A program made the translations under genes and the position numbers. From Candidatus Aminicenantota bacterium (GTDB taxonomy: Bacteria; Acidobacteriota; Aminicenantia; Aminicenantales; Aminicenantaceae): 32,542 bases of DNA. Of the stretch, positions 2,079 through 18,082 are shown one piece after another (position 1 is the first letter of the stretch; each line of letters begins with the position of its first letter). The notes under the pieces were generated by a model. The model worked only from the letters and a program-made list of their open reading frames with translations. It was not told the origin of the DNA and did no database searches. The DNA is taken from the NCBI GenBank assembly GCA_011042725.1, contig DQWD01000111.1, positions 1-32,542 of the forward strand, given 5' to 3'.

Positions 2079-2093
2079 TAGCGCTGGTTGATC

Positions 2094-2864
2094 ATGAAAA
2101 TTACTTTTCTTGGAACAGGCGGAGCAGTAGCTACTGAGGAAAGAGACAATACTTCTCTATTAGTTGCCCAGGGTAAATTTTTAGCTTTAGTTGATTGCCC
2201 TGGCGGAGTGGTTCAAAAGATAAAAAAAGCTGGTTATCTCCCTCAAAATTTGCAAGCTATCTTGGTTACTCATGTCCATCCTGACCACATTTATGGATTG
2301 CCTTCTTTAATTCATAGTTTAATGCTGGAAGACATGACCTTAGAATTGTATGGTTCTTCGGCCTCGATATTATTTTGTCAAAAATTATTGGATTTGTTTC
2401 AATTGCGGGAGAATAAAATAAAATGCAGGGTCAGGTTTAAAGAGCTTGAACCGGCAGAAGTAGTTTGGTTAACTCCTGAACTTTCCCTGACCTCGATGTC
2501 TATGAACCACCATCCGTCTTCGGTGAGCTTTTTCTTGGCTATCAATCAAGAAAAGAAAATTGCTTATTCCGGAGATACGCCACCCGATGAGAATTTTTTT
2601 CAAAGAGTCAAAGGTTGTGACTGTGTTATCCATGATTGTAGTGCTCCTTCTCGTTTTTTTGAGCTTTACCCTCAACTTCGAATGATGCATACCGATGCTC
2701 TGACTTTGGGGCGTCTAGCCGAAAAAGCAGAGATAAAAAGATTAATCCCTTGCCATTTTTTTGGTGAAGTTCAATTCAGTTTGACCGAGATTATTGAGGA
2801 AATTAGGGCTTTCTATCACCGAGAGTTGTTTGTTCCGGAAGATTTTTCTTCGGTGTGCATTTAA
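2094..2864 (+). CDS. Metallo-beta-lactamase-fold hydrolase (RNase Z-like)
   Basis: A 256 aa two-metal hydrolase of the metallo-beta-lactamase fold, of the subgroup resembling RNase Z and related phosphodiesterases. The metal-binding motif is THVHPDH (H60, H62, D64, H65). It is followed by a histidine pair in MNHHPSS, an aspartate in AYSGDTP and a final CHFFGE histidine, which together make a complete metal site. The N-terminus KITFLGTGGA is typical. Without the RNase Z exosite it could be a tRNA 3' processing enzyme, a cyclic-nucleotide phosphodiesterase or another esterase. I prefer the ATG at 2094 over the TTG two codons earlier in the ORF track. It is divergent from the GHMP kinase, with overlapping predicted promoters. 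Confidence 0.88.
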   Translation: MKITFLGTGGAVATEERDNTSLLVAQGKFLALVDCPGGVVQKIKKAGYLPQNLQAILVTHVHPDHIYGLPSLIHSLMLEDMTLELYGSSASILFCQKLLDLFQLRENKIKCRVRFKELEPAEVVWLTPELSLTSMSMNHHPSSVSFFLAINQEKKIAYSGDTPPDENFFQRVKGCDCVIHDCSAPSRFFELYPQLRMMHTDALTLGRLAEKAEIKRLIPCHFFGEVQFSLTEIIEEIRAFYHRELFVPEDFSSVCI

Positions 2865-2996
2865 TTTTCTAAGTAATAGTGAAAGAGAAATAGACAACTT
2901 TAAGCCGATGTGGAAAAATCTGAAGATGGATTTTAAGAAAAAAATTATGGATAAAACCCCTAAAAAAGAATTAATGTCCAAGACATAAAGAAGAAA

Positions 2997-4682
2997 ATGA
3001 GGTTTTTACTTCTTTTGATGGGAGTTTTGGTCTTTTTCATAGCGGGATGTCAAGTGGAAGATAAAAGAATCAAGGCTGATTTAGTCCTCAAAAACGGAAT
3101 TGTCTGGACTGGTGAGGCGGAAATGCCGGGGGCAGAAGCGGTAGCTGTTGCTCAGGGAGAGATTGTGAGGGTAGGTAGCAATGATGATGTTAAAGAGCTA
3201 ATTGGTCCGGAAACTCAACTTATTGACCTCCAGCAAAAGCTTCTTTTACCCGGTTTTATCGATAGCCACACCCATTTTCTAGATGGTGGATTTTCATTAA
3301 CGCGGATTAATCTTCAGGGAGTTACCACTAAAGATGAATTTATTGGCCGAGTGGAAACCAAAGCTAAGGAGCTAGCTCCTGGAGAGTGGATTCTCGGCGG
3401 TAACTGGGATCACCAAGATTTAAATCCTCCTCAACTGCCGCGAAAGGAGTGGATTGACCCGGTAACCACAGAGAATCCCGTTTGCGTTTTTCGTCATGAC
3501 GTCCATATGGTTCTAGTTAATAGTTTGGCGTTGAAAATGGCTGGTCTTACCTCTCAGAGTCCATCTCCTCCGGGGGGTGAGATTGTCAAGGATGAAACAG
3601 GGGCGTTAACCGGAATTCTTAAGGATGCCGCTATTAACCTTGTTACTCGATTAATACCCGAACCAAGTGAGGAGGAAAAAATAGAAGCTGCTCGCCGAGC
3701 TTTGGCGGAAGCCCGGCGATGGGGACTAACTTCCATTCATGATATGTCGGGATTAGATGCTTTTTATACTTACCATAACTTACTGGAAAGGGGAGAATTA
3801 ACAGCTCGAATCATTGTTTATCCTCCATTACGCTTAATAGATAATCCAGAGGAATTATTAAAGGCCAGAGCGCAGAGTAATGAATTTTTAAAAATAGGAG
3901 GAGTTAAAGGCTTTACTGATGGCTCTTTGGGTTCCGGAACAGCTTTATTTTTTGATCCCTATCTTGACCAACCAGGAAATTGTGGTCTTTTAGCCGAAGA
4001 TATGTTTCCCGAAGGAATAATGAAACAGAGATTGGCCAAAGCGGCTCAGGTGGGATTGCCGGTGGCTGTTCATGCCATTGGGGATCGTGCTAATCATCTC
4101 CTGTTGGATGTGTATCAAGAAATAAATGATGAATTTGGCTTTCAAGAGAGACGATGGCGAATCGAGCATGTTCAACATCTCCTTCCCGAAGACATCCCCC
4201 GGTTGTCTCAATTAGGAGTTATTGCTTCCGTTCAACCCTACCATCTTGTAGACGATGGCTGTTGGGCGGAGAAAAAGATAGGTCTTCAAAGATGCCAAAC
4301 AACGTATGCTTTTCATTCCTTACTGGAAAGAGGAGCTATTTTAGCCGGAGGATCAGATTGGCCGGTAGCTCCTCTTAATCCCCTGACAGGAATTTATGCC
4401 GCGGTGACGAGACAGACAGCTGATGGGCGTCACCCGCAAGGTTGGATTCCTCGGGAGAAAATTTCAATCGACCAGGCTGTTCGAGCTTATACCTGGGGTG
4501 GAGCTTGGGCCGAGAAAGCCGAGGAAAAGAAAGGAACAATAAAAAAAGGAAAACTGGCGGATTTAGTTGTTCTTAATCGCCCTATTTTTAAGATTGTCCC
4601 CGGGGAAATAAAAAGGGTAAAAGTTGACTTGGTGATCATTGCCGGAAAGATTATTTTTGAGAGAGAAGAGTCTAAAGAATGA
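2997..4682 (+). CDS. Lipoprotein amidohydrolase (YtcJ-like, amidohydrolase family 3)
   Basis: Metal-dependent amidohydrolase of the YtcJ/AepA-like group, 561 aa. The N-terminus MRFLLLLMGVLVFFIAGC is a lipoprotein signal peptide with a lipobox ending at Cys18, so the enzyme is probably anchored in the envelope, which is unusual for this mostly cytoplasmic family. The beta-sandwich start (ADLVLKNGIVWTG) precedes the barrel with DSHTHF (H91, H93), HAIGDRAN, RIEHVQH and the catalytic-aspartate motif GGSDWPV. The C-terminus returns to the sandwich domain with KGKLADLVVLNRPIF. The substrate is unknown; relatives act on amides, cyclic imides or N-acyl compounds. Its last codons overlap the start of the cation exchanger gene, indicating co-transcription and translational coupling. 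Confidence 0.9.
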   Translation: MRFLLLLMGVLVFFIAGCQVEDKRIKADLVLKNGIVWTGEAEMPGAEAVAVAQGEIVRVGSNDDVKELIGPETQLIDLQQKLLLPGFIDSHTHFLDGGFSLTRINLQGVTTKDEFIGRVETKAKELAPGEWILGGNWDHQDLNPPQLPRKEWIDPVTTENPVCVFRHDVHMVLVNSLALKMAGLTSQSPSPPGGEIVKDETGALTGILKDAAINLVTRLIPEPSEEEKIEAARRALAEARRWGLTSIHDMSGLDAFYTYHNLLERGELTARIIVYPPLRLIDNPEELLKARAQSNEFLKIGGVKGFTDGSLGSGTALFFDPYLDQPGNCGLLAEDMFPEGIMKQRLAKAAQVGLPVAVHAIGDRANHLLLDVYQEINDEFGFQERRWRIEHVQHLLPEDIPRLSQLGVIASVQPYHLVDDGCWAEKKIGLQRCQTTYAFHSLLERGAILAGGSDWPVAPLNPLTGIYAAVTRQTADGRHPQGWIPREKISIDQAVRAYTWGGAWAEKAEEKKGTIKKGKLADLVVLNRPIFKIVPGEIKRVKVDLVIIAGKIIFEREESKE

Positions 4683-5662
4683 TTCCCATTTATTTTATAG
4701 TCCTGATACTGGCCTTTGTTTTGATGTTTAAATCGGCTGATTTTTTTATCGAAGGCTCGGTGGGATTAGCGCAGGTTTTTGATTTACCCAAGTTGGTAGT
4801 TGGGATAGTTTTAGTTGGGCTAGCCACCACTGCCCCCGAGTTAGCTGTTTCAGTCCAATCAGCCTATCTTGGCCATCCTGAAATTGCCTTGGGGAATGCT
4901 ATCGGTTCAGTTATCGTTGATGATGGAGTAGCGTTGGCCCTAGCTGGGCTTTTAGCCGCGGGGCCAATTTTTGTTAATTGCCGATTAATTCGATTTGTTG
5001 GTGCTTTTTTACTAGGGATCGATCTGGCCGCTTTTCTTTTGGCTTTAAATGGAACCATCGGGCGACTGGAGGGATTGATTTTTTTGGTTCTCCTCGTAGT
5101 GTATTATATTATTTTAATCAAGAATAGAGATATTGGAGAAACATTTGCCGCTGAAGAGGAAAAGCTTCTCAAAGATATCAAAAAAGTTCGTTCCACCCGC
5201 TACCAACAATTAAAGAAATCTTCTTTTTATTTTGGCGGGGGGATTATAGGAGTCCTCCTGACCAGTCGATTAGTTATTTGGTCAGCCACGAATATAGCTC
5301 GTTCATTTTCAATCTCGGAAACAGTCATCGGTTTAACCATCATTGCCATCGGAACTTCTTTGCCTGAGATTAGCACCTGTATCGTTGCCGCGCGAAAGGG
5401 AGAGGGGGAAATAGCAGTTGGAGATATCATTGGGGCCGATATCCTTAATATTCTGTGGATTATCGGAGCCTCAGCTTTAGTCAATCCCATTGACGTGGAG
5501 TTGAAAGTTATTTATTTCTCCTTTCCGGCTATGTTAATCATCGTTACGACTATGCTTTTGTCATTAAATATAGGATGCCGCTTAACCAAGCCTCGCAGTG
5601 CTCTTCTCTTAGGGCTATATGTCATTTATTTCTTTTTAGTAATGAAATTTTTTGTGTTTTAA
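4679..5662 (+). CDS. CaCA-family sodium/calcium (cation) exchanger
   Basis: An inner-membrane cation:cation antiporter of 327 aa with about ten hydrophobic segments in two inverted halves. Each half has an alpha repeat. The first contains TTAPELAVS (Glu54) and GNAIGSVIVDD. The second contains GTSLPEIS and GDIIGADILNI. The paired glutamates of the ion site are present, but the usual GSN..N of repeat 1 reads GSV..D, placing acidic residues where archaeal NCX_Mj has Asn81, and repeat 2 has GD and GAD where GN and GSN are common. Ion preference is therefore uncertain (Ca, Na, K or H). A Lys/Glu-rich cytoplasmic loop sits between the halves. The ATG overlaps the amidohydrolase stop (ATGA). Confidence 0.88.
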   Translation: MIPIYFIVLILAFVLMFKSADFFIEGSVGLAQVFDLPKLVVGIVLVGLATTAPELAVSVQSAYLGHPEIALGNAIGSVIVDDGVALALAGLLAAGPIFVNCRLIRFVGAFLLGIDLAAFLLALNGTIGRLEGLIFLVLLVVYYIILIKNRDIGETFAAEEEKLLKDIKKVRSTRYQQLKKSSFYFGGGIIGVLLTSRLVIWSATNIARSFSISETVIGLTIIAIGTSLPEISTCIVAARKGEGEIAVGDIIGADILNILWIIGASALVNPIDVELKVIYFSFPAMLIIVTTMLLSLNIGCRLTKPRSALLLGLYVIYFFLVMKFFVF

Positions 5663-5777: not shown

Positions 5778-6881
5778 ATGAATATTGGGATATTAAACGA
5801 AAGCAATAAGATCGAAAACAGGGCGGGGTTATCTCCCAGTAGTGTTTCGATGCTTGTTGAGAAAGGTCATCGGGTATATATCCAGGCTGGGGCTGGTTTG
5901 CGAGCTGGTTACGCCAATGAGGAGTATTCCAATTTGGGAGCTGAAATCGTCTTCACCAAAGATGAGATATTTGGTCGTTCCGATGTAGTACTCAACATTT
6001 CTCCTCTTGATGAGGAAGAGAGCCATTTAGCTAAGGAAGGACAGGTTCTTTTTGGATTTCACCACTTAGCGGTGGCGAAGAGAAATGTAATTGAAGAACT
6101 ATTGAGAAAAAAGGTGACGATTATCGGTTATGAAATAGTTCAAGACGACGAAGGTGAGCTTCCTTTCCTTGAAGGTTTAAGTGAAATTGCAGGCCAAATG
6201 TGCGTAGCCATTGCTGGTCATTATTTACAAACTACTTATGGGGGGCGAGGGATAATTCTAGGGGGGGTAGTGACCTGTCCTCCAGCTACAGTTGTCGTCG
6301 TCGGCAGTGCGGTTTTGGCCAAGAGCGCGATTAAAGCTTTTCTTGGTGCTGGAGCCCAAACCATTGCTTTAGGCCGGCACATGGATCGCATGAGAGCTCT
6401 TGAAGAGATAACTTCGGGTCAAGTAGTAACCATGATTGCTACTAGCTACAATTTAGCTCGCATGGTGAAAATAGCTGATGTGGTTATCGGAGCAGTTTTG
6501 CGACCAGGTGAGAAAGCTCCGATCATGATTACTAAAGATATGGTCCGATCGATGAATAAAGGAGCGGTCATCATTGACTTATCAATTGACCAGGGAGGCT
6601 GTATTGAAACAAGTCGGCCCACAACCCTTGAGCATCCCGTTTATACTGAGGAAGGAGTTATCCATTACTGTGTTCCCAATATTACTTCTGCTGTGAGCCG
6701 AAGCTCAACCAAGGTTCTTTCCAACATGGTTACTCCTTGGTTATTGGAAATGGGAGAGAAAGGCTTGGAAGAGGTTCTTAAATCCAGCCCAACTTTAGCC
6801 CGCGGAGTTTATGTCTATCAGGGAAATATTTCTAAGGAAAATATTGCTGAACGGTTTGGATTGCCGTATCGACCTCTTTGA
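5778..6881 (+). CDS. Alanine dehydrogenase-like protein with altered active and NAD sites
   Basis: A 367 aa member of the alanine dehydrogenase/transhydrogenase-alpha family, which normally interconverts alanine and pyruvate with NAD. Colinear with mycobacterial alanine dehydrogenase, it keeps Arg15 (ENRAGLSP), His96 (GFHHLA) and the aspartate of SIDQGGC (Asp271). The substrate-binding Lys75 position reads Ser (NISPL). The nucleotide loop that should be GxGxxG reads GSAVLA, with one of three glycines kept. The acidic residue that binds the adenosine ribose is replaced by a Gly-Arg stretch (ALGRHM). It may be inactive, use another cofactor, or have a structural or regulatory role. The ATG at 5778 follows GGAGGG and is preferred to the upstream TTG. 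First gene of the operon, 24 bases before the NuoE-like gene. Confidence 0.82.
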   Translation: MNIGILNESNKIENRAGLSPSSVSMLVEKGHRVYIQAGAGLRAGYANEEYSNLGAEIVFTKDEIFGRSDVVLNISPLDEEESHLAKEGQVLFGFHHLAVAKRNVIEELLRKKVTIIGYEIVQDDEGELPFLEGLSEIAGQMCVAIAGHYLQTTYGGRGIILGGVVTCPPATVVVVGSAVLAKSAIKAFLGAGAQTIALGRHMDRMRALEEITSGQVVTMIATSYNLARMVKIADVVIGAVLRPGEKAPIMITKDMVRSMNKGAVIIDLSIDQGGCIETSRPTTLEHPVYTEEGVIHYCVPNITSAVSRSSTKVLSNMVTPWLLEMGEKGLEEVLKSSPTLARGVYVYQGNISKENIAERFGLPYRPL

Positions 6882-6905: not shown

Positions 6906-7352
6906 ATGGAGCCCAGAAAACGCGGTCAACTTATTCATCTTTTACATCAGGCTCAAACTCAAGAAGGTTATATTTCGGCCGAGGCCATTGCCGCAATTGC
7001 CCGCAAGTTGAAAATTTCAGAAGGAGAAGTTTTTGGCGTGGTGACTTTTTACAAGGGGTTTTCTTTAAAACCGCAAGGAAAACACAAAGTTACGTTGTGC
7101 ATGGGAACGGCTTGTCATGTGCGCGGGGCCCCTTTAATCTTGGACGAATTGGAGAGAACCTTGCAAATTCCCGCTGGAGAGACAACCCCTGATGGTTTGT
7201 TTACCTTGGAAACTGTTAATTGTGTTGGTGCTTGTGCCTTGGGGCCGATTGTTATTGTGGATGGTGAATATCACGGACAGGTGAAGCCCCGGGAAGTCAA
7301 AAACCTTCTGGTTAAGGTGGATGAAAATTTAGATCGGTTAAAAGAACAATGA
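6906..7352 (+). CDS. NuoE/HydC-like [2Fe-2S] subunit
   Basis: A 148 aa thioredoxin-fold iron-sulfur protein equivalent to the 24 kDa subunit of complex I (NuoE) and the C subunit of bifurcating HydABC hydrogenases. A helical N-terminal region (GYISAEAIAAIARKL) leads into the ferredoxin part with Cys65-x4-Cys70 and Cys106-x3-Cys110, a full [2Fe-2S] ligand set. It would pass electrons to or from the flavin subunit encoded next. The start codon may be ATG 6906 or GTG one codon earlier; AGGAG lies upstream. Its stop overlaps the next start in ATGA, which favours stoichiometric co-translation. A larger out-of-frame ORF over the same bases is a shadow. Confidence 0.92.
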   Translation: MEPRKRGQLIHLLHQAQTQEGYISAEAIAAIARKLKISEGEVFGVVTFYKGFSLKPQGKHKVTLCMGTACHVRGAPLILDELERTLQIPAGETTPDGLFTLETVNCVGACALGPIVIVDGEYHGQVKPREVKNLLVKVDENLDRLKEQ

Positions 7353-9250
7353 AAATTACCAATATCGAAAAACTGAAGGAAAAGGTCATTAACTCTCGAG
7401 ATAAAACAAAGACCTGGGTAACGGTTTGCGGAGGGACAGGGTGTCATGCTTACGGCTGTATGAAAGTTGTCGAGGCTTTCCAAGAAGAAATTAAAAAGAA
7501 AAACTTGGTGGACACGGTGGGAGTAAGGACTACAGGCTGTCATGGATTCTGTGAACGGGGACCACTGGTGGTAATTCAACCCGAAGGTATTTTTTATCAG
7601 CGGGTGGGAGTGGATGATGTGCCTGCTATTGTTGAAGAGACGGTGGTCAATAAAAAGATTGTCGAGAAATTACTCTACCGGGATCCGCAAACCAAGCAGG
7701 CTATAATTCATGAACAAGATGTTCCTTTTTATAGCAAGCAAAAAAGGATTATTTTTGGCAACAATGGATTGATTGATCCCACCGATATTCGCGACTACAT
7801 CGCTGTGGATGGTTATCAAGCCCTGGCCAAAGTGCTCTTTGAGATGACGGCTGATGAAGTTATCAAAGAGATCAAAAAATCAGGTTTAAGAGGACGAGGT
7901 GGGGCCGGTTTTTTAACGGGGTTGAAATGGGAGATTTGCCGCCGAGAGTCAGCGCCAATTAAATACCTTATCTGCAATGCTGATGAAGGAGATCCAGGGG
8001 CTTACATGGATCGTAGTCTTTTAGAGGGTAATCCTCACTCCGTGATTGAGGGAATGATCATTGGGGCTTACGCCATCGGAGCAACAGAAGGATTTATTTA
8101 TGTTCGGATGGAGTATCCTTTAGCGGTCAAGAATATAACGATAGCCATCGAACAAGCGCGGAAGTTTGGCCTTCTGGGGGAATCCATCCTTGGCTCTGAG
8201 TTTAGTTTTGAACTCCATGTTTTCAAGGGAGCTGGTGCTTTTGTTTCAGGAGAAGAAACATCGTTGATGGCTTCCATCGAAGGGCGGCGTGCTTTTCCTC
8301 GACAAAAACCACCATTTCCAGCCCAAAAAGGATTATGGGGATATCCCACCAACATTAACAATGTGGAAACTTGGGCCAATGTGCCTCTCATTATTAATAA
8401 GGGAGCTGATTGGTATTCAAAAATTGGAACAAAGTCCAGTAAGGGGACCAAGATATTTTCTCTAGTGGGGAAAATAAATAATACAGGTTTGGTTGAAGTG
8501 CCGATGGGGATAAGCCTGCGAGAAATAATTTATGAAATCGGAGGAGGAATAAAAGATAATAAAAAATTTAAAGCCGTGCAAACAGGAGGCCCTTCAGGAG
8601 GGTGTATTCCTGCCGAAATGCTCGATCTACCAATTGATTTTGATACTTTGACCAAAGCCGGATCTATGATGGGCTCGGGAGGAATGATTGTCATGGATGA
8701 AGATACCTGCATGGTCGATGTGGCTCGCTATTTCCTCCAGTTTACTCAAGAAGAATCATGTGGCAAATGTGTTCCTTGTCGCTTGGGAACTCGCCAGCTC
8801 TATGAGATATTAACCCGGATAACCAAAGGACAGGGAGAACCTGAGGATCTTAAAAGATTAAAAGATTTAGCCAAGACGGTTAAAACCGGGTCTTTATGCG
8901 GTTTAGGACAAACAGCTCCTAACCCTGTTCTTACCACCCTTAAGTATTTTCGCCATGAATATGAAGCCCACATCTTTCGTCATGAATGCCCCGCTCTATC
9001 TTGTAAAGATTTAATCATTTATTACATTGAACCAGAAAAATGTGTGGGATGTTTGCTATGTCTGAAGAATTGCCCGGTGGGCGCCATTAGTGGGGAAAGG
9101 AAACAAGTCCACGTTATTGACCAGGAGCTATGTGTTAAGTGTGGAGCGTGTTTGGACGTTTGTCCTCCCAAGGTTCGGGCCGTGTCGAAGTATACAGGCA
9201 AGAAAAAACAGCAAATCTTAAATAAAGAGAAAAAGGCGAGAAGAAGATGA
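7349..9250 (+). CDS. NuoF/HydB-like NADH- and FMN-binding iron-sulfur subunit
   Basis: The 633 aa flavin subunit. An N-terminal thioredoxin-like [2Fe-2S] domain (Cys27, 32, 64, 68 the likely ligands, plus Cys37) is fused to the NuoF core. The core has the FMN/NADH motifs GLRGRGGAGF (about 179-188) and NADEGDPGAYMDR (about 210-222), the SLBB domain, and the [4Fe-4S] site CGKCVPC plus a distant Cys (471, 474, 477, 517). The C-terminus adds two bacterial ferredoxin [4Fe-4S] motifs (565-575 and 595-605). This N- and C-extended layout is that of HydB in electron-bifurcating hydrogenases and NADH-linked formate dehydrogenases, not of respiratory NuoF. Expected role: exchange of electrons between NAD(H) and ferredoxin or partner subunits in the cytoplasm. 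Overlaps both neighbours by ATGA. Confidence 0.93.
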   Translation: MKITNIEKLKEKVINSRDKTKTWVTVCGGTGCHAYGCMKVVEAFQEEIKKKNLVDTVGVRTTGCHGFCERGPLVVIQPEGIFYQRVGVDDVPAIVEETVVNKKIVEKLLYRDPQTKQAIIHEQDVPFYSKQKRIIFGNNGLIDPTDIRDYIAVDGYQALAKVLFEMTADEVIKEIKKSGLRGRGGAGFLTGLKWEICRRESAPIKYLICNADEGDPGAYMDRSLLEGNPHSVIEGMIIGAYAIGATEGFIYVRMEYPLAVKNITIAIEQARKFGLLGESILGSEFSFELHVFKGAGAFVSGEETSLMASIEGRRAFPRQKPPFPAQKGLWGYPTNINNVETWANVPLIINKGADWYSKIGTKSSKGTKIFSLVGKINNTGLVEVPMGISLREIIYEIGGGIKDNKKFKAVQTGGPSGGCIPAEMLDLPIDFDTLTKAGSMMGSGGMIVMDEDTCMVDVARYFLQFTQEESCGKCVPCRLGTRQLYEILTRITKGQGEPEDLKRLKDLAKTVKTGSLCGLGQTAPNPVLTTLKYFRHEYEAHIFRHECPALSCKDLIIYYIEPEKCVGCLLCLKNCPVGAISGERKQVHVIDQELCVKCGACLDVCPPKVRAVSKYTGKKKQQILNKEKKARRR

Positions 9251-11784
9251 CGATGAAAATTGTAATTAACGGACAAGCTTTGGAAGTTTCCCCAGATAAA
9301 ACTATCTTAGATATTGCCCGGGAAAATAACATTTTTATTCCCTCTCTCTGTGATCACTCTCTTCTTGAACCTTTTGCTGGTTGCCGATTGTGTCTAGTGG
9401 AGATCAAGGGGCGAAAAGCCTTTGTCCCCTCCTGTGCTACTTTTCCTGAAGAAGGGATGGAAGTGGTTACTGATTCTCCTAAGTTAAAAAAGATGAGGCG
9501 GGAAATTCTCGAGTTAATTTTGACCGAGCATCCGCATGCTTGTCTCATTTGTCAAGAAAAGGAGAATTGTGATGAGTTTAAGTCCACCATCCGAAAAGTA
9601 GGGGAAGTCACGGGTTGTGTTTTATGTCCTAACAATGGTCAATGTGAACTGCAAGAATTAGTGGAATATGTGGGTTTAAAGAAAGTTAGGTATCCCGCCG
9701 TTTATAGAAATGAAGAAATAAGAAAAAACGATCCTTTCTTCGAGAGAAATAATAATCTCTGTATTCTTTGTGGTCGATGTGTTCGAATTTGCCAAGAAGT
9801 CCGAGGAAATGGCGTATTAACTTTCATTTCTCGGGGAACCGAAACTATTATTGGGACGGTCTTAGACAAGAGTCTAATTGACTCTGGCTGTCAATTTTGT
9901 GGTGCTTGCCTTGATGTTTGTCCCACGGGAGCTTTAGAAGAAAAGGGCCGAAAATATGAGTTGCTTCCCGATGAGAAGAAACCAGGCTTTTGTGGATTAT
10001 GCAGCGTGGGATGTCAAGGAATTTATGAGCTGCGCCAAGGAAGAATAATTGGATTGAAACCAGAAGTAAATTCATTTAATCAAGGTCAATATTGTGTCCG
10101 CGGAAAGTTTGTTCTTCGTGAATTGATTAACTCTGAGCAACGTATCTCCTATCCTTATCGGCGCCAAGACCAGCAGCTGGAAAGAATTTCTTGGGAAGAG
10201 GCTGTTGATCAAATTGCCGAGAAATTAAAGTCTTACCGAGGAGATGAAATTGCCTGCATCTCTTCTCCTTGCTCAAGCGTAGAAAATCTTTTTGCTTTCT
10301 TTAAGTTTGCTCAAGAAGTTTTAAAGACGGTGAATTTTTATTCACCAAGTGTCTACTCAGCTCTTGCTCACTGGCCGCTAAGTAAAGGTGATGATGCGGC
10401 TGAGGTTTGGAACCATGTTCAAGATTTTAAAGAAATATTTGCCTGGGGAGCTGATTTAAGGGTTTCCCATCCCATCCTTTGGGTAAAAATACTGGAGGCA
10501 GTGAGAAACGGATCATCATTATTTGTTTTTGATTTTATCTCAAGCCCAGGCGATCGATGGGCCGAGAAAAAAGTAAATTTATTTCCTTTGACTTATCTAG
10601 GCTTCTTGGCTGAAATTGTTAATCAACTCCTTCAGATAAAGAAAGATAATGGTTCTCTTTCTGAGGAAGAAAATAATTTGCTTTCTGCAGGAGAGAAGAA
10701 ACTATTAGCCCAACGTCTTTCGGCCAAAGAAATGAGGAAGGCCAGGAAAGCGGCTGAGATCCTGGCTAAGTCCAGCTCTCGAGTTTTTATGATTGGCGAC
10801 CGAATGGTCATTAGTAAAAATGGAAGTCAAGCTTTATTACTTCTGGAGAAGATAGCTCGTCTTTGTCAGGCCAAGTTGGTAATTCTTCCTCAGGATAGCA
10901 ATTCCCGGGGAGAAAGAGAGTTGGCCGCTGTCCGAGGAATATCATTTAAACCTCTCTCGGATTTGTCTAAGAGGATTGTTAATCGTCAAGTCAAGGCGGT
11001 AATTAGTGTGGGGGCAGTGAGTGCCTCTTTATCAGGACCGCACCTAGAATTGCAGGTTGTGCTTGATTCATATTGGACGGAAGGAGCAAAGGAAGCTGAT
11101 TTTGTGCTTCCTATAAATAATTTTTGGGAAGAAGAGGGTAGTTTCCTTAATGCCGCCGCCCGATGGCAAATTTTTCCAGCCATCATCTCCCCACCAGACG
11201 AAGCTCTCCCGGAATGGGGAGTTTTTAATCAATTGGCTGAAAAAATGAGTAAATCTAAGTGGCAATGGACTTCGATCGACCGGGTTCGCCGAGATCTTAA
11301 GAAAGAAGTAAAAAGTTTAGCCAAGGTTTCTTTTCCAAAAATTAAGCAAGGGAGTGCTTTTATTTGGCAGCCTTTTGTCCAGGAAAAAGAATCCTTTTCA
11401 AAGGAAAGGGAACTCAAGCTGGAGATGGAAACTTTGGGAGCGGCTCAAGCGGAAGATTATTTTTTAATAACTTCTCCTTCTTCCGACCAGTATCGGAGCT
11501 TAGCTTTAGCCGAAGTCAGTCGAGGCTTAGCCCTTTTACGCCATCATCGCTGGGCCTATTTTCATCCCGAGGACCTGTCTTCTCTGCAGTTAAGTGAAGG
11601 AGATGAAGTGTTTCTTAGCTCATCAAAGGGAAAGATAAAAGCAGTGGTGAAGAGTTCGCCTTTTATTCCTTCGCGGACTGTCTATATGAGTTTTACTTGG
11701 GGAGGAGCGGAAGAGTCTAATCTAGCCGATTGGTTGTGGCCGGAGGGTTCGATGATTATTCCCATTAAGATAGAAAGAGGGTAA
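9247..11784 (+). CDS. NuoG/formate dehydrogenase-like iron-sulfur molybdopterin-fold subunit
   Basis: An 845 aa protein. Domains in order: [2Fe-2S] ferredoxin (Cys35, 46, 49, 63); a His-Cys [4Fe-4S] motif (His95, Cys99, 102, 108); a second CxxCx5C block (124, 127, 133); two ferredoxin [4Fe-4S] motifs (172-182, 215-225); the molybdopterin-oxidoreductase [4Fe-4S] domain (249, 252, 256, 283); a degenerate molybdopterin-fold body; and a C-terminal dinucleotide-binding-like barrel. At the place where formate dehydrogenases have Cys or Sec before His and PSV, this protein reads NFYSPSV, so the catalytic residue seems to be Phe364. There is no in-frame TGA and no H-cluster motif, so it is neither an obvious formate dehydrogenase nor an [FeFe] hydrogenase. 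It most likely acts as an electron wire or scaffold. Start at ATG 9247 or 9253. Confidence 0.88.
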   Translation: MTMKIVINGQALEVSPDKTILDIARENNIFIPSLCDHSLLEPFAGCRLCLVEIKGRKAFVPSCATFPEEGMEVVTDSPKLKKMRREILELILTEHPHACLICQEKENCDEFKSTIRKVGEVTGCVLCPNNGQCELQELVEYVGLKKVRYPAVYRNEEIRKNDPFFERNNNLCILCGRCVRICQEVRGNGVLTFISRGTETIIGTVLDKSLIDSGCQFCGACLDVCPTGALEEKGRKYELLPDEKKPGFCGLCSVGCQGIYELRQGRIIGLKPEVNSFNQGQYCVRGKFVLRELINSEQRISYPYRRQDQQLERISWEEAVDQIAEKLKSYRGDEIACISSPCSSVENLFAFFKFAQEVLKTVNFYSPSVYSALAHWPLSKGDDAAEVWNHVQDFKEIFAWGADLRVSHPILWVKILEAVRNGSSLFVFDFISSPGDRWAEKKVNLFPLTYLGFLAEIVNQLLQIKKDNGSLSEEENNLLSAGEKKLLAQRLSAKEMRKARKAAEILAKSSSRVFMIGDRMVISKNGSQALLLLEKIARLCQAKLVILPQDSNSRGERELAAVRGISFKPLSDLSKRIVNRQVKAVISVGAVSASLSGPHLELQVVLDSYWTEGAKEADFVLPINNFWEEEGSFLNAAARWQIFPAIISPPDEALPEWGVFNQLAEKMSKSKWQWTSIDRVRRDLKKEVKSLAKVSFPKIKQGSAFIWQPFVQEKESFSKERELKLEMETLGAAQAEDYFLITSPSSDQYRSLALAEVSRGLALLRHHRWAYFHPEDLSSLQLSEGDEVFLSSSKGKIKAVVKSSPFIPSRTVYMSFTWGGAEESNLADWLWPEGSMIIPIKIERG

Positions 11785-11786
11785 TA

Positions 11787-12623
11787 ATGGCCGAGATAAT
11801 AAAAAGAGAACGTTTAGTCCCCAATATCCATTGCGTAGAAATTGAGGCTCCTGAAATTGCTCGTAAATGTCAACCAGGTCAGTTCATCATCGTGATGCCG
11901 GATGAAAAGGGAGAAAGAATTCCGTTAACCGTAGCTGATTGGGATCGGGAGAGTGGGACCGTCACCTGTGTTTTTCTCGTAGTTGGAACTTCGACTCATA
12001 AGTTGAGCTTTCTTCAAGCAGGAGATGAGATCCCTGTTGTCGTTGGACCATTGGGCCGACCAACTAAAATCGAGAAATTAAACACAGTGATGGTTATCGG
12101 TGGTTGTTATGGAATTGGGGCCATTTATCCTTTAGCTCGAGCTTATAAGAACTTGGGTAGTAAGGTTTTGACTTTAATCGATGTTAAAGCGGATTATCTT
12201 TTTTACTGGAAAGAGAAATTTGAAGAAGTTTCCGATGAGATATTTGTTTCCTCAAGAGATTATGTCTATGATTGTCAGGGCTATGTTCCTCAGATCCTGA
12301 AGAAGATCCTAAGAGAAAGGAAGCAAAAGATAAACCGGGTTTATGCTAGCGGATGTACTTATTTGTTATATACCTGTGCTCAAGCTACTCAACCAGCCCG
12401 AATTGAAACTATAGTTGCTCTTAATCCCATCATGGTTGATGGCACGGGCATGTGTGGAGCTTGTCGCGTTACGGTTGGAGGGAAAACAAAATTTGCTTGT
12501 GTTGATGGCCCCGACTTTGATGGTCATCAAGTAGATTGGGAAGAGCTTTTTGCTCGACGAAAGTCATATTTTGATGATGAAATCCAATCTCTTTGTTATT
12601 GGGAGAGAAAAACTTTCCCTTGA
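11787..12623 (+). CDS. nfnA: NfnA/SudB-like FAD and [2Fe-2S] subunit
   Basis: A 278 aa ferredoxin-NADP reductase-type protein of the dihydroorotate dehydrogenase electron-transfer family. It matches the small subunit of NfnAB (NADH-dependent ferredoxin:NADP oxidoreductase), also called SudB or sulfide dehydrogenase subunit beta. The FAD-binding barrel contains QPGQFIIV and RIPLTVAD. The NAD-binding lobe starts with VMVIGGCYGIGAIYP. The C-terminal cluster site has Asp218, Cys223, Cys226 and Cys238 (DGTGMCGAC, then FACVDGPDFDGH), the Asp-plus-three-Cys pattern typical of this subunit. The glycine loop carries Cys107 where glycine is usual. It begins two bases after the upstream stop codon and is followed by the large subunit gene, the standard Nfn gene order. 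Confidence 0.92.
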   Translation: MAEIIKRERLVPNIHCVEIEAPEIARKCQPGQFIIVMPDEKGERIPLTVADWDRESGTVTCVFLVVGTSTHKLSFLQAGDEIPVVVGPLGRPTKIEKLNTVMVIGGCYGIGAIYPLARAYKNLGSKVLTLIDVKADYLFYWKEKFEEVSDEIFVSSRDYVYDCQGYVPQILKKILRERKQKINRVYASGCTYLLYTCAQATQPARIETIVALNPIMVDGTGMCGACRVTVGGKTKFACVDGPDFDGHQVDWEELFARRKSYFDDEIQSLCYWERKTFP

Positions 12624-12651: not shown

Positions 12652-14157
12652 ATGGTCGAGAAAAATCAATTATCACCAGATGTCAAAGAAAAACTAAAAC
12701 AGGAATATTTAAAAGGATGGCGTTTAGCCTTAAGAAAATCGATTCCAGTTAAAGAGAGGATGAAAATCCCTCGGCAGAAAATGCCCGAGAGAGAACCTGA
12801 GGAGAGGAACCGTGATTTTTGCGAAGTTAATCTTGGGTTGGCCGAAGAGGCAGCTCGTAAGGAAGCCGCTCGATGCCTTGATTGTGCTAACCCTCAGTGT
12901 GTACTGGGCTGCCCTGTGAGGATTGATATTCCCACCTTTATCAAATTAATTGAGAAAGGTGATTTCATTCAAAGTGCCCGGAAAATAAAGGAAACGAATT
13001 CTTTGCCAGCCATATGTGGCCGAGTCTGTCCCCAAGAAAGTCAATGTGAGGCCCTCTGTAATCTGAAAAAAGCCACAGGAGTTCCGGTAGCTATCGGAAA
13101 TTTAGAGAGATTTGTTTCTGACTATGAGCGCCTCCACGGGGAAGTTTATATTCCACCTCCAGCCCCGGCTACAGGTCATAAAGTAGCGGTTCTTGGAGCC
13201 GGCCCTGCCGGGCTAACAGTTGCCGGTGAACTTGTAAAAAAAGGACACCAAGTCACCGTGTTTGAGGCTCTCCATGTGGCAGGAGGAGTTTTGGTTTATG
13301 GGATTCCTGAATTTCGTCTGCCGAAGGGTATCTTGGAAGCCGAAGTAGATTATTTAAAAAAATTGGGCGTTGAATTTCGGATGAATTTTGTGGTGGGCTT
13401 AACCGCAACGCTTGATGATTTGCGCCAAGAGGGATACGAGGCTTTTTTCATTGGTACAGGAGCCGGCTTGCCCAATTTTATGCGTATTCCAGGGGAAAAT
13501 TTAATAGGTGTATATTCTGCCAATGAGTATCTAACCCGAGTTAACTTGATGAGAGCTTATGCTTTTCCTGAGTATGATACTCCTGTTTTTCGCGGAAAAA
13601 GGGCTGCCGTCATCGGCGGAGGAAATGTAGCAATGGATGCTGTTCGCACGGCGAAGAGGTTGGGAGCCGAGGAAGCCACCATCGTTTACCGTCGGTCTCG
13701 AAAGGAGATGCCAGCCCGGGAGGAAGAAATTAAACATGCGGAAGAAGAAGGGATTAAGTTTCATTTTCTAACAGCTCCCATTCGCTACTTAGGAGATGAT
13801 TGTTACCGGGTAAGAGCGATGGAGTGTATCCAGATGGAACTGGGGGAACCAGATTCTTCCGGAAGGCGTCGCCCAGTTCCTATTCCTGGTTCGGAGTTTA
13901 CCATGGAAGTTGACTTAGTTGTAGTAGCCATTGGTCAAAGCCCCAATCCTCTTATTCCCCAGACAACTCCAGAGCTCAAAGTGGGTAAATGGGGTAATGT
14001 GGAAGTTGACTGGGAAACCATGGCCACATCAGTCGAAGGAGTGTATGCTGGTGGAGACATCATTCGTGGAGGAGCCACGGTGATTCTAGCCATGGGAGAT
14101 GGACGAATAGCGGCCCGAGAAATTGATAATTATCTCAATTCATTGGAGAATAGATAG
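12652..14157 (+). CDS. nfnB: NfnB/SudA-like FAD and 2[4Fe-4S] subunit
   Basis: A 501 aa protein of the glutamate synthase small-chain family. It matches the large, bifurcating subunit of NfnAB, which couples NADPH to NADH and reduced ferredoxin. Two N-terminal [4Fe-4S] sites are visible: Cys75, 78, 83, 87 and Cys122, 126, 132, 136. The FAD-binding fingerprint is VLGAGPAGL (about 180-188). The NADP-binding fold has VIGGGNVAMDAVRTA followed by YRRSRKEMPA (about 320-355), whose arginines fit NADP rather than NAD. The C-terminal FAD motif is GGDIIRGGATVILAMGDG. GltD of glutamate synthase is the main alternative, but no large glutamate synthase subunit is nearby and the adjoining NfnA-like gene settles the pairing. 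Confidence 0.92.
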   Translation: MVEKNQLSPDVKEKLKQEYLKGWRLALRKSIPVKERMKIPRQKMPEREPEERNRDFCEVNLGLAEEAARKEAARCLDCANPQCVLGCPVRIDIPTFIKLIEKGDFIQSARKIKETNSLPAICGRVCPQESQCEALCNLKKATGVPVAIGNLERFVSDYERLHGEVYIPPPAPATGHKVAVLGAGPAGLTVAGELVKKGHQVTVFEALHVAGGVLVYGIPEFRLPKGILEAEVDYLKKLGVEFRMNFVVGLTATLDDLRQEGYEAFFIGTGAGLPNFMRIPGENLIGVYSANEYLTRVNLMRAYAFPEYDTPVFRGKRAAVIGGGNVAMDAVRTAKRLGAEEATIVYRRSRKEMPAREEEIKHAEEEGIKFHFLTAPIRYLGDDCYRVRAMECIQMELGEPDSSGRRRPVPIPGSEFTMEVDLVVVAIGQSPNPLIPQTTPELKVGKWGNVEVDWETMATSVEGVYAGGDIIRGGATVILAMGDGRIAAREIDNYLNSLENR

Positions 14158-14208: not shown

Positions 14209-15507
14209 ATGAGCTGGGTTGACGAGTATAAAAAGAAGCTTTGTTCTGCTGAAGAAGCAGTTTCGGTGATTAAGAATCATAATCGAGTTTATATCAGCGG
14301 CAATGCGGCCACTCCTTATACTTTAATGAGTGCATTGGCCCAGAGAAAGGATGAATTAATAGAGGTGGAATTAACCCATGTTCTTCTTCTGGGAGAAGAT
14401 CCTTTTTCGGCCCCCGAAATGGAAGGACATTTTCGTCATAATTCCCTTTTTGTCGGACCAGCGGATCGAAAGGCTATCAATGAAGGGCGGTCGGCTTATG
14501 TTCCTATCTTCCTTCATCAGATTCCGGATCTTTTTTACTCGGGGCAAATGCCGTTAGATGTGGCCATACTTCACCTTTCACCTCCTGATGAGCATGGTTT
14601 CATGAGCTTCGGAGTGGAGGTTTTAGCTTCCAAAGCAGCCGCCGAGACAGCTAAACATGTTATCGCTCAGGTGAATGATAAAATGCCTCGCGTTTTGGGA
14701 GATTCCTTTATTCATGTTTCCAGGGTGGATAAAATTGTTGAAATTTCGGAAGATTTACCTGAGTTAGCGAAAAAACCCTCGACCGAGGTGGAAAAGAAGA
14801 TTGGCAAGTTTATCGCCGATTTGATTGAAGATGGAAGTACCTTGCAGCTAGGAATTGGAGGGATACCCGATGCCGTTTTAGCTGAACTGAAGACCAGGCG
14901 GGACTTGGGAATTCATACCGAGATGGTGTCTGATGGGGTTATGGAGGGAATTCAAGAAGGGATAATTACGGGAGCCAGGAAGACCTTTCATCCTTACAAA
15001 GTGATCTTGACTTTTATGTTGGGTTCTAAAAAATTATATGAATTTTCCAATAATAACCCCATTTTCGAGGCTCATCCCACCGATTATACCAATCATCCTT
15101 TTAATGTCGCTCGTAATGAGAAAATGATTGCCATTAATTCGGCTATCGAAGTGGATATCACCGGTCAAGTTTGTTCCGATTCGATCGGGACTTACATTTA
15201 TAGTGGTTTCGGTGGGCAAGTTGATTTTATCCGGGGAGCAGCTCACTCCAGAGGCGGAAAACCAATAATTGCTCTTCCTTCCACCGCTAAGGGAGGCGAG
15301 TTATCGAGGATAGTCCCCTTTCTCAAACAAGGAGCCGGGGTGGTCACCACCAGGGCTGATGTTAAATATGTGGTCACCGAATACGGGGTAGCCTATCTTC
15401 ATGGTAAAAACCTTCAGGAAAGAACAGAAGCTTTAATTAACATCTCTCATCCCAAGTTTAGAGCCGATTTAATTAAAGAGGCAAAGAAACGGAATCTGCT
15501 TAAGTAA
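14209..15507 (+). CDS. Acetyl-CoA hydrolase/CoA-transferase (4-hydroxybutyrate CoA-transferase-like)
   Basis: A 432 aa family I CoA-transferase/hydrolase that moves CoA between acyl-CoA and a carboxylate, commonly acetate, in fermentation. The catalytic glutamate falls at Glu238 in GIHTEMVSDGV, as in characterised 4-hydroxybutyrate CoA-transferases. Other family motifs are LGIGGIPDAVL, DSIGTYIYSGFGGQVDFIRGA, ALPSTAKGG and VVTEYGVAYLHGK. The exact acyl acceptor cannot be inferred; acetate, butyrate or 4-hydroxybutyrate are all possible. It has a strong AAAGGAGG ribosome binding site, lies 51 bases after nfnB with no terminator between, and so probably belongs to the same operon, linking acyl-CoA turnover to the redox proteins. 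Confidence 0.92.
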   Translation: MSWVDEYKKKLCSAEEAVSVIKNHNRVYISGNAATPYTLMSALAQRKDELIEVELTHVLLLGEDPFSAPEMEGHFRHNSLFVGPADRKAINEGRSAYVPIFLHQIPDLFYSGQMPLDVAILHLSPPDEHGFMSFGVEVLASKAAAETAKHVIAQVNDKMPRVLGDSFIHVSRVDKIVEISEDLPELAKKPSTEVEKKIGKFIADLIEDGSTLQLGIGGIPDAVLAELKTRRDLGIHTEMVSDGVMEGIQEGIITGARKTFHPYKVILTFMLGSKKLYEFSNNNPIFEAHPTDYTNHPFNVARNEKMIAINSAIEVDITGQVCSDSIGTYIYSGFGGQVDFIRGAAHSRGGKPIIALPSTAKGGELSRIVPFLKQGAGVVTTRADVKYVVTEYGVAYLHGKNLQERTEALINISHPKFRADLIKEAKKRNLLK

Positions 15508-15530: not shown

Positions 15531-16202
15531 TTGCCCGAACAAAATTTTCTGTTTCCCGGAGCTAAAGGTCATCTGGGAACCGACGAATCAGGCAAAGGGG
15601 ATTATTTTGGCCCGTTGGTTGTTGCCGGTCTGTTTTTACCTGCCGGGCAGGCAAGTGTTTTAGCTGAATTAGGGGTTAGGGATAGCAAGAAATTTGCTGA
15701 TAGCCGAGTTCAGGAATTAGCTCAGCTTTTAAAACAAGGTTATCATCACTCTTTAGTTGTTATCGGTCCGGAGAAATATAATGAATTGTACACCAAAATG
15801 AGAAATTTGAATCGACTGCTGGCTTGGGCGCATGCTCGGGTTATTGAAAATGTCCTAGAGAAAGTTGATTGTCGAAGAGTCGTAACCGACCAATTTGGCG
15901 ATAAGCTCTATGTTTTGAATGCATTAATGAAAAAAGGGCGGCAGATTGAGTTGATCCAGAGACCAAAAGCTGAGCAGGATATGGCTGTGGCGGCGGCTTC
16001 GATATTGGCCCGGGCGGAATTTTTGAGACGCCTATCTTATCTTTCCCAAGAAGTGGGAGTTGACCTTCCTAAGGGTGCTTCGCCTAAAGTACAGGAAGTT
16101 GGTTATCAATTAGTTAAAAAAAAAGGCCAAGAGATATTGAAGCGGGTGGCCAAAGTGCACTTTAAAACCACTCAAAAGATTTTGGCCTTGCTGGGGGATT
16201 AA
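15531..16202 (+). CDS. rnhC: Ribonuclease HIII, short form
   Basis: RNase HIII cuts the RNA strand of RNA:DNA hybrids in the cytoplasm. The catalytic residues fit the DEDE set: Asp18-Glu19 in TDESGKGDYFGPLV, Asp120 in VTDQFGD and Glu148 in RPKAEQDMAVAAASI. At 223 aa it is much shorter than the usual RNase HIII of about 300 aa, because the N-terminal TBP-like substrate-binding domain is absent. The upstream frame contains no start codon that could supply it before the CoA-transferase stop. The start is TTG with AAGGGGAG just upstream. It follows the CoA-transferase by 23 bases and may ride on that operon's transcript, an unrelated function tagged on. Confidence 0.9.
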   Translation: MPEQNFLFPGAKGHLGTDESGKGDYFGPLVVAGLFLPAGQASVLAELGVRDSKKFADSRVQELAQLLKQGYHHSLVVIGPEKYNELYTKMRNLNRLLAWAHARVIENVLEKVDCRRVVTDQFGDKLYVLNALMKKGRQIELIQRPKAEQDMAVAAASILARAEFLRRLSYLSQEVGVDLPKGASPKVQEVGYQLVKKKGQEILKRVAKVHFKTTQKILALLGD

Positions 16203-16262
16203 TTTAAGTGACGAAAAGAAGAAGCAATTGACTACTGGGTAACAAGCATTTACAATAACTTT

Positions 16263-16475
16263 GTGAGTAAAGATAAAGTAACGATCAAACTTCCTCGACC
16301 TCTATATAACCGGGTTAAGAATATCATTGAAGGTAGCGGTTTTGGCAGTGTTAATGAATTTGTGGTCTATGTGCTTAGAGACTTAGTTTCCATGCATGAA
16401 TCAAGTAGTTCGGAATTAACTAGAGAGGAAGTAGAAAAAATCAGGCAGCGCTTGAAAAACTTAGGTTACTTCTAG
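16263..16475 (+). CDS. Small ribbon-helix-helix-like protein
   Basis: A 70 aa protein whose first 45 residues look like a ribbon-helix-helix (CopG/Arc-type) fold: a short beta strand VTIKLPRPLYNRV, then two helices with SGFGSVNEFVVYVLRDLV. The second half is charged (TREEVEKIRQRLKNLGYF). Such proteins bind DNA as dimers, but no partner toxin or operator is evident, and similar proteins are often of unknown function. It starts with GTG and has only a weak ribosome binding site, so the start is less sure than the frame. Its target is not known. Confidence 0.75.
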   Translation: MSKDKVTIKLPRPLYNRVKNIIEGSGFGSVNEFVVYVLRDLVSMHESSSSELTREEVEKIRQRLKNLGYF

Positions 16476-16670
16476 GGCTTTTTCCCAAGATTTCTTTCAT
16501 TTTTAACTTGATTGTGGTCAAGAAGAGACAGACTAAGAAACTATAAAAAAATTAAATTTGAGTCATTCCTGACCAAACCTTGAATGAAGAACAGAAATGT
16601 TTTTTCCTATACAACTACTTATGGAGTTTAGTAAAATTTTATCCTTTTTTATTTAAACAGATAGGTTTCC

Positions 16671-17897
16671 ATGATGCTCTTGATGAAACTGCTTATCTTG
16701 GTTTTAGTTTTACTCGTTTTAATTAGGCTAAAGATAGAAATAAGTATTGTTCTTCTCTTGGGAACAGGGCTTCTTGAAATTCTTTTCCCCGTTCCCCTTG
16801 GTGTCTTCTGGCGAAACATTGGAGAGAGTATCTTTAACTCTCAATCCCTATCTTTGGTAGGAATTGTTGTCTTGGTGCTTTTTCTTGGGCGTTTTCTCCA
16901 GATCCAGGGTAATTTTAACCAGATGGTTCGCTCTCTTCAGCAATCCATAAGAGAACCTCGTTTAATTTTAGCGATTCCTCCTGCTCTCATCGGTCTTTTG
17001 CCGATGCTGGGAGGAGCCTTGGTTTCAGCTCCGATAGTTGAAGAGGCCAGCCGGAAGTGGTCGCTCTCGCCCGCTTGGAAAACCTTTTACAATTATTGGT
17101 TTCGCCACATTTGGGAGTATTGTTGGCCACTCTATGTCAATATGATTCTGGCAGCGGCAATTATTCAAGTGCCGATTATGAGAATTTCAATTTTTCAGTT
17201 TCCGTTTACCTTGCTGGCCGCGGCTTTGGGCTTATTTGTCCTTTTTCGCCAAGTTAAGCCTATTGACATTCCCGCAAAAAAATTAAAGCCCCGGGAAGTT
17301 CTCACCCATCTAGGGGAGAGTTTATGGGCTATTTGGCCGATCATCTTGATCATTATTTTTATTTTTATCTTTAAGCTCAGCATGCTTTTAGCTTTGGCCT
17401 TGAGTGTGGGATTAACCCAAGTTTTTTTCCGTTCCCCATTACCCAAAAGATGGCAAATTTTTAAAGAAAGTTTTTCGTGGAAAACCGTCCTTTTGGTTTT
17501 AGCCGTCATGATATTTAAAGGAATGCTGGAAAAGTCATCCGCTCTCACTGGATTGGAGCAGTTACTTCATACTGATGGATGGTGGGCTTATTTTTTACTA
17601 TTTTTCATTCCTTTTGTGTTGGCTTTTCTTACGGGTGTTAACCATGCTTACGTGGGGATTTCTTTTCCTCTTCTTCTGCCCATTATTGGTCAAGGCAATC
17701 CTGATATGATTTTGCTCATGTTTGCTTATGTGAGTGGTTTTGTGGGGATCCTTCTTTCTCCAGCGCATCTCTGTTTGGTTCTGACCCTTGATTATTTTCG
17801 AGCGAGCCTAAAGGATGTTTATCGAATCATGATTATTCCCGTTATTATTATTTTTATGGCTGCTTTTCTTGTCTTGCTTGTTTTCCGGATAGTTTGA
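16671..17897 (+). CDS. DUF401-family membrane permease
   Basis: A 408 aa integral inner-membrane protein with roughly ten or more hydrophobic helices, related to the DUF401 group of the ion-transporter-like permeases. The conserved loop after the third helix reads GLLPMLGGALVSAPIVEEA, followed by FYNYWFRHIWEYCWPLY. The second half repeats a hairpin-like region around FLTGVNHAYVGISFPLLLPII. Substrate unknown; relatives are loosely linked to gluconate- or citrate-type transporters. Three closely spaced ATG codons (16671, 16674, 16683) could serve as the start. It follows a 195-base A/T-rich gap in which I could not place a convincing promoter. Confidence 0.83.
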   Translation: MMLLMKLLILVLVLLVLIRLKIEISIVLLLGTGLLEILFPVPLGVFWRNIGESIFNSQSLSLVGIVVLVLFLGRFLQIQGNFNQMVRSLQQSIREPRLILAIPPALIGLLPMLGGALVSAPIVEEASRKWSLSPAWKTFYNYWFRHIWEYCWPLYVNMILAAAIIQVPIMRISIFQFPFTLLAAALGLFVLFRQVKPIDIPAKKLKPREVLTHLGESLWAIWPIILIIIFIFIFKLSMLLALALSVGLTQVFFRSPLPKRWQIFKESFSWKTVLLVLAVMIFKGMLEKSSALTGLEQLLHTDGWWAYFLLFFIPFVLAFLTGVNHAYVGISFPLLLPIIGQGNPDMILLMFAYVSGFVGILLSPAHLCLVLTLDYFRASLKDVYRIMIIPVIIIFMAAFLVLLVFRIV

Positions 17898-18082
17898 AAA
17901 GAAGCGGTAAGTTTAAAGATTGGTGTTCAAGCTTTCTCTAGAAGTTATAGACTTTAGTTTTATCCTAATCGGGTGGGACTGAAAATGGTAACATAAGTGA
18001 ATCTAAAAAGAGAAAAGTTGATCAGGATAATTTAATGAATAACAATAAAAAGAGAATCTAAACACTGTTGAGGAGGCCACTC

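Follow-up and report, generated by a model that had tools for sequence, protein, structure and literature searches.

The window, a 32,542-nucleotide stretch of Candidatus Aminicenantota DNA, holds at positions 5778-6881 a gene for a protein resembling alanine dehydrogenase (Ald), which, from sequence and gene context, we favour reading as a partner subunit of a CoA-transferase, with a dinucleotide site that has been rebuilt, perhaps for NADP(H). The protein is a variant within a known fold and, judging from the tree described below, is a member of a distinct and well-supported clade of Ald-like proteins that extends across Acidobacteriota and lacks the lysine K75. The features concerned are:

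5778..6881, + strand: Ald-like protein of the K75-less, CoA-transferase-linked subfamily, 367 aa (Pfam, TIGR00518, alignment to M. tuberculosis Ald)
6303..6320, + strand: codons of the rebuilt dinucleotide loop, G-S-A-V-L-A, residues 176-181 (translation, alignment)
6369..6380, + strand: L-G-R-H codons, residues 198-201, replacing the ribose-binding L-D-x-x (translation, alignment)
6906..7352, + strand: NuoE/HoxE-like [2Fe-2S] subunit (profile matches)
7349..9250, + strand: NuoF-like NADH/FMN/FeS subunit with N-terminal 2Fe-2S and C-terminal ferredoxin domains (profile matches)
9247..11784, + strand: NuoG-like FeS / molybdopterin-fold subunit, fast evolving (profile matches, dN)
11787..12623, + strand: NfnA-like FAD/NAD-binding FeS subunit, sulfide/dihydroorotate dehydrogenase-like (profile matches)
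12652..14157, + strand: NfnB/GltD-like NADPH-binding FeS flavoprotein subunit (profile matches)
14209..15507, + strand: CoA-transferase of the 4-hydroxybutyrate / butyryl-CoA:acetate CoA-transferase family, the inferred partner (family match; best PDB hit 9vag/9wns/9wnu, 613 bits)

The open frame at 5778-6881 (+) is translated without a stop into 367 amino acids, and a ribosome-binding-like sequence, GGAGGG, lies 5' of the ATG at 5778. Both AlaDh_PNT domains of Pfam span the full length of the protein (PF05222, 120.6 bits; PF01262, 210.4 bits), and its AlphaFold model (mean pLDDT 86.9) matches alanine dehydrogenase 2vhx with a TM score of 0.92, which indicates that the fold has been kept. Identity with M. 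tuberculosis Ald (Rv2780, PDB 2vhx), whose residue numbering is followed here, is about 37%, and the alignment of the two proteins bears out the residues that the preliminary description had read by eye. In particular, R15, H96 and the catalytic Asp (D270, in 'IDQGGC') remain, together with E118 and N300; KVKEP is replaced by NISPL, so that K75 reads Ser and, in addition, K73 reads Asn; the GxGxxG loop, GAGTAG, reads GSAVLA, a form specific to the source genome, most of the clade keeping the second Gly, usually as GSGVLA (GxGxxA); and LDIN reads LGRH, the ribose-binding D198 having given way to Gly followed by Arg. The protein thus resembles the L-alanine dehydrogenases (TIGR00518; Rv2780, 2vhx; Thermus 2eez) in fold, domain order and the five retained residues, whereas it differs from them at K73/K75, at GxGxxG and D198, and in scoring 342 bits against TIGR00518, below the family cut-off of 391.85. 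PntA, the domain I protein of proton-translocating transhydrogenase, shares the superfamily fold (TM about 0.83) but was rejected as an identity, the scores of 103-131 bits lying far from the family cut-offs of 444 and 383.

Homologues were gathered from 247 Acidobacteriota genomes and 119 Aminicenantia genomes, and residues were compared among 45 K75-having, 32 Aminicenantia-clade and 34 other K75-less sequences, where 'canonical' refers to the presence of K75 in the first 45, which also form one clade. All K75-less proteins fall into one clade (SH-aLRT 99) opposite the canonical clade (99); nested within the former is the Aminicenantia clade, to which the proteins of genomes G060 and G120 are the nearest branches. 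The substitutions, for which clade status had been raised as a question, do define a clade (SH-aLRT 99). K75 is absent from 66/66 sequences of the subfamily, and outside the Aminicenantia clade no single residue has become fixed in its place; R15, E118, D270 and N300 are invariant in the same 66, while H96 is invariant in the 32 Aminicenantia-clade proteins and missing in 8 of the 34 other relatives. The NAD site is intact outside the Aminicenantia clade (G175, G177, G180 and D198 in 34/34) and is likewise retained in the G060 and G120 proteins. Inside the clade, K73 has become Asn in 32/32 and K75 Ser in 31/32; the third glycine of the fingerprint is Ala in 31/32; D198 is replaced by Gly (30/32) or Ser (the other 2), with Arg as the next residue in 21/32; and the second glycine is kept in 24/32, usually within GSGVLA, being otherwise Thr (6), Ser (1) or Ala (1).

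Since the K75-less relatives, including the nearest branches, keep the NAD site, tree and alignment point to a history of two steps, in which a widespread branch first lost K75 and the NAD site was changed later, in Aminicenantia only. The earlier idea of a selective loss of cofactor and substrate residues as one event is therefore set aside on the residue counts and the tree, as the loss of K75 is older and common to relatives with an intact NAD site. Five other K75-less members score 353-377 against TIGR00518, below the same cut-off, and a canonical one (L039) scores 552. Both types occur in the same genome in several cases (e.g., G132, G144 and G156), which makes them paralogues that probably have different jobs. 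Two members call for separate mention: a contig titled candidate division Zixibacteria (SM1_73; L003) carries the whole Aminicenantia operon and a protein that groups within the Aminicenantia clade, and is probably mislabelled or mis-binned, and in another clade member (L076, G334:C11) a TAG codon interrupts the reading frame of the Ald-like gene, reflecting a sequencing error or a broken copy.

K75-less genes are closely linked to a CoA-transferase gene. Direct adjacency was found by script at 27 of 37 K75-less loci, and at 30 of 37 once three loci that the script had missed owing to long open frames (G161, G011 and G144) were added by coordinates, in contrast to 0/43 canonical genes. Of the seven loci without adjacency, five come from Aminicenantia genomes that carry the transferase within the operon or at another locus; a sixth (G211) is cut off by a contig edge, and the seventh (G231:C76) is an extra copy, the genome's other Ald-like gene being adjacent to the transferase. 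In the window five genes separate the Ald-like gene, first in the run, from the transferase, which comes seventh. The 119 Aminicenantia genomes hold both genes in 29 cases, the Ald-like gene only in 2, the CoA-transferase only in 2 and neither in 86, counts that take no account of relatedness, with joint absence seen in several families (f1, f2 and f4). The transferase is hence present in 29 of the 31 genomes with an Ald-like gene; in one of the two Ald-only genomes, G338, the contig breaks off within NfnB, short of where the CoA-transferase would lie. Both genes are likewise retained in G060, where they occupy different contigs, and in G120, where 10 kb separates them. Behind the Ald-like gene these two genomes (L046 and L047, respectively) carry a ResB-like and a cytochrome c assembly-like gene, of which Pfam identifies the second only in G120; NuoE comes directly after the two genes only in G120.

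The window's transferase is about 55-71% identical to the transferases beside K75-less genes elsewhere in the phylum, and its Glu238, in 'GIHTEMVSDG', occupies the family's catalytic position, a role that we take over from 4-hydroxybutyrate CoA-transferase. Its closest solved relative is the '4-hydroxybutyrate coenzyme A transferase' of PDB entries 9vag, 9wns and 9wnu (613 bits vs 462 for the next), a highly similar protein, while 'alanine dehydrogenase' chains are listed in 9vae, 9wns and 9wnu, which means that 9wns and 9wnu each contain an Ald chain and a CoA-transferase. In the partial sequence available for it, this Ald chain has Ala at position 75 ('LKVARP'), so it too is without K75, and shares the 'GYEL' pocket motif with the window's protein. 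These entries were not among the best 50 matches of the fold search, and literature searches found no paper on the complex of 9vae/9vag/9wns/9wnu and nothing relevant on the physiology of the Aminicenantes CoA-transferase. The Ald matches listed from a plasmid collection were all <40% identical, and two CoA-transferase regions examined there (Deinococcus) had no Ald neighbour. Adjacency, joint distribution and the solved entries make it very likely that the Ald-like protein is a partner of the CoA-transferase. No constant third gene was found among the neighbours of the pair, so the substrate is not readable from gene context.

The Ald-like gene had been described as the first gene of a redox operon, and indeed it stands ahead of NuoE-NuoF-NuoG-NfnA-NfnB, in a run that ends with the CoA-transferase, a gene left unnamed in that description. 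It might then be a dedicated subunit of a NuoEFG-NfnAB redox complex, as the preliminary description suggested among other roles; the gene heads this operon in most clade members, and in G331 an NfnB gene is all that separates the Ald-like gene from the CoA-transferase gene (L157, G331:C102), NuoEFG and NfnA being on another contig (L156) with an NfnB of their own. However, NuoE-F-G-NfnA-NfnB is kept without either flanking gene in at least seven Aminicenantia genomes (G311, G303, G320, G072, G267, G271 and G309), in several of which the outer neighbours, amidohydrolase and RNase HIII, are still in place; NuoG-like matches are found in 100 of the 119 Aminicenantia genomes (42-43% identity in G303/G311/G320) vs 31 with the Ald-like gene; and no such block lies beside the K75-less gene in relatives from the rest of the phylum. 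This distribution rejects an obligate NuoEFG-Nfn subunit and renders a dedicated one very improbable, the constant partner being the CoA-transferase. As to the rest of the locus, the NuoG-like gene (9247-11784) has a dN of 0.309, compared with 0.04-0.12 for its operon neighbours, and 55-60% vs 80-93% identity to congeneric genomes. Metallohydrolase, amidohydrolase and antiporter-like membrane protein genes before the operon (2088-5662) and RNase HIII, DUF401 and alanyl-tRNA editing-like genes after it (15531-19327) are conserved in most clade members, and some persist in genomes that lack the Ald-like and CoA-transferase genes.

The nature of the rebuilt site can be approached from its conservation. 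Between the window and an 89%-identical relative, the Ald-like gene has a dN of 0.059 with saturated synonymous sites, and the lowest value, 0.040, falls in the NAD domain; such strong purifying selection excludes decay, in which the site would be free to vary, and a pseudogene was rejected on these grounds. A sequencing error in GSAVLA is likewise unlikely, because the second glycine varies in 8/32 clade members (GST, GTS, GSA). GxGxxA together with loss of the acidic residue is a textbook NADP signature, and a GxAxxG loop is also present in the NADP-dependent 6-phosphogluconate dehydrogenase. Alanine dehydrogenases have been engineered to use NADP through Shewanella D198A and B. subtilis D196A/L197R (reviewed in PMC5817062); the same acidic position is removed in the Aminicenantia clade, often with the next residue Arg, whereas the clade is natural and its glycine loop and K75 are changed too. 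With the second glycine being Thr, Ser or Ala in 8/32, including the protein of the window, and position 199 not always basic, it is uncertain whether the site takes NADP, and it may accommodate no dinucleotide at all. On balance, the residues suggest NADP(H) as a tentative assignment for the cofactor of the Aminicenantia protein, with slightly less than an even chance. Of the new role proposed earlier, a changed function with a possible NADP preference stays reasonable, while a place in the redox complex is unsupported by the distribution.

In the favoured reading, the Ald-like protein and the 4-hydroxybutyrate-family CoA-transferase (14209-15507) would most likely form one protein complex. 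The cleft lined by R15, H96, E118, D270 and N300 may still bind a small carboxylate, though not in the alanine/pyruvate geometry that requires K75, and the ligand could be handed between the two subunits in either direction. In the Aminicenantia branch the dinucleotide site would have given up NAD, with NADP(H) as the simplest replacement, and NADPH might be exchanged with NADH and ferredoxin via the operon's NfnAB and NuoEFG proteins. Whether the Ald-like protein is still a hydride-transferring enzyme is an evenly balanced matter. The furthest extension, in which an NADP(H)-dependent Ald-like dehydrogenase channels its product into the bound CoA-transferase with the pair docked on NfnAB/NuoEFG, is improbable; if true, it would bring amino-/oxo-acid oxidation, CoA-ester formation and electron confurcation into one Aminicenantia assembly.

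The main rival to this enzymatic partner is a non-catalytic regulatory or structural subunit, which would serve the CoA-transferase as scaffold or ligand sensor and carry out no redox chemistry; the relatives would sense NAD(H), and the Aminicenantia NAD site would have been lost or turned to another ligand. The complete absence of K75, whose replacement varies outside the Aminicenantia clade, the absence of H96 in about a quarter of the non-clade relatives (8/34), the two or three altered fingerprint positions in the Aminicenantia clade and the joint presence of an Ald chain and CoA-transferase in the PDB are all in line with it. However, the invariance of R15, E118, D270 and N300, and of H96 in the Aminicenantia clade, exceeds the needs of a scaffold, and constraint on the protein is strongest in its NAD domain, so that this explanation is on the whole unlikely. 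An ordinary alanine dehydrogenase with compensating residues is a still weaker candidate. It would agree with the shared fold (TM 0.92 to 2vhx), with the retention of most active-site residues and with the gene being the sole Ald/PNT match in the source genome, which is 89% complete. Nevertheless, K75 and K73 are lost and the NAD site is altered; the protein, like every K75-less protein scored, falls below the curated TIGR00518 cut-off that a canonical member passes; and genomes such as G132, G144 and G156 hold both types, whose K75-less protein is not simply their alanine dehydrogenase. All this makes an ordinary alanine dehydrogenase highly improbable.

Collectively, the 'alanine dehydrogenase' label is, on sequence grounds, probably wrong for the product of 5778-6881 and for its K75-less relatives. 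Many would-be 'alanine dehydrogenase' genes in Acidobacteriota seem to fall into a second branch, which lacks the substrate lysine and is linked to a CoA-transferase, and the same mislabelling of K75-less genes probably occurs beyond this phylum, where sampling was uneven (one contig scan, 12 loci). Position 75 and the gene neighbour provide a residue test that separates the two Ald branches, and the link to the CoA-transferase makes the function of the pair testable. The Aminicenantia clade may also offer a natural example of an NAD site that has moved towards an NADP-like form. Metabolic reconstructions of uncultured Aminicenantia, which by default would include an NAD-dependent alanine dehydrogenase, are corrected once the K75-less branch is recognised.
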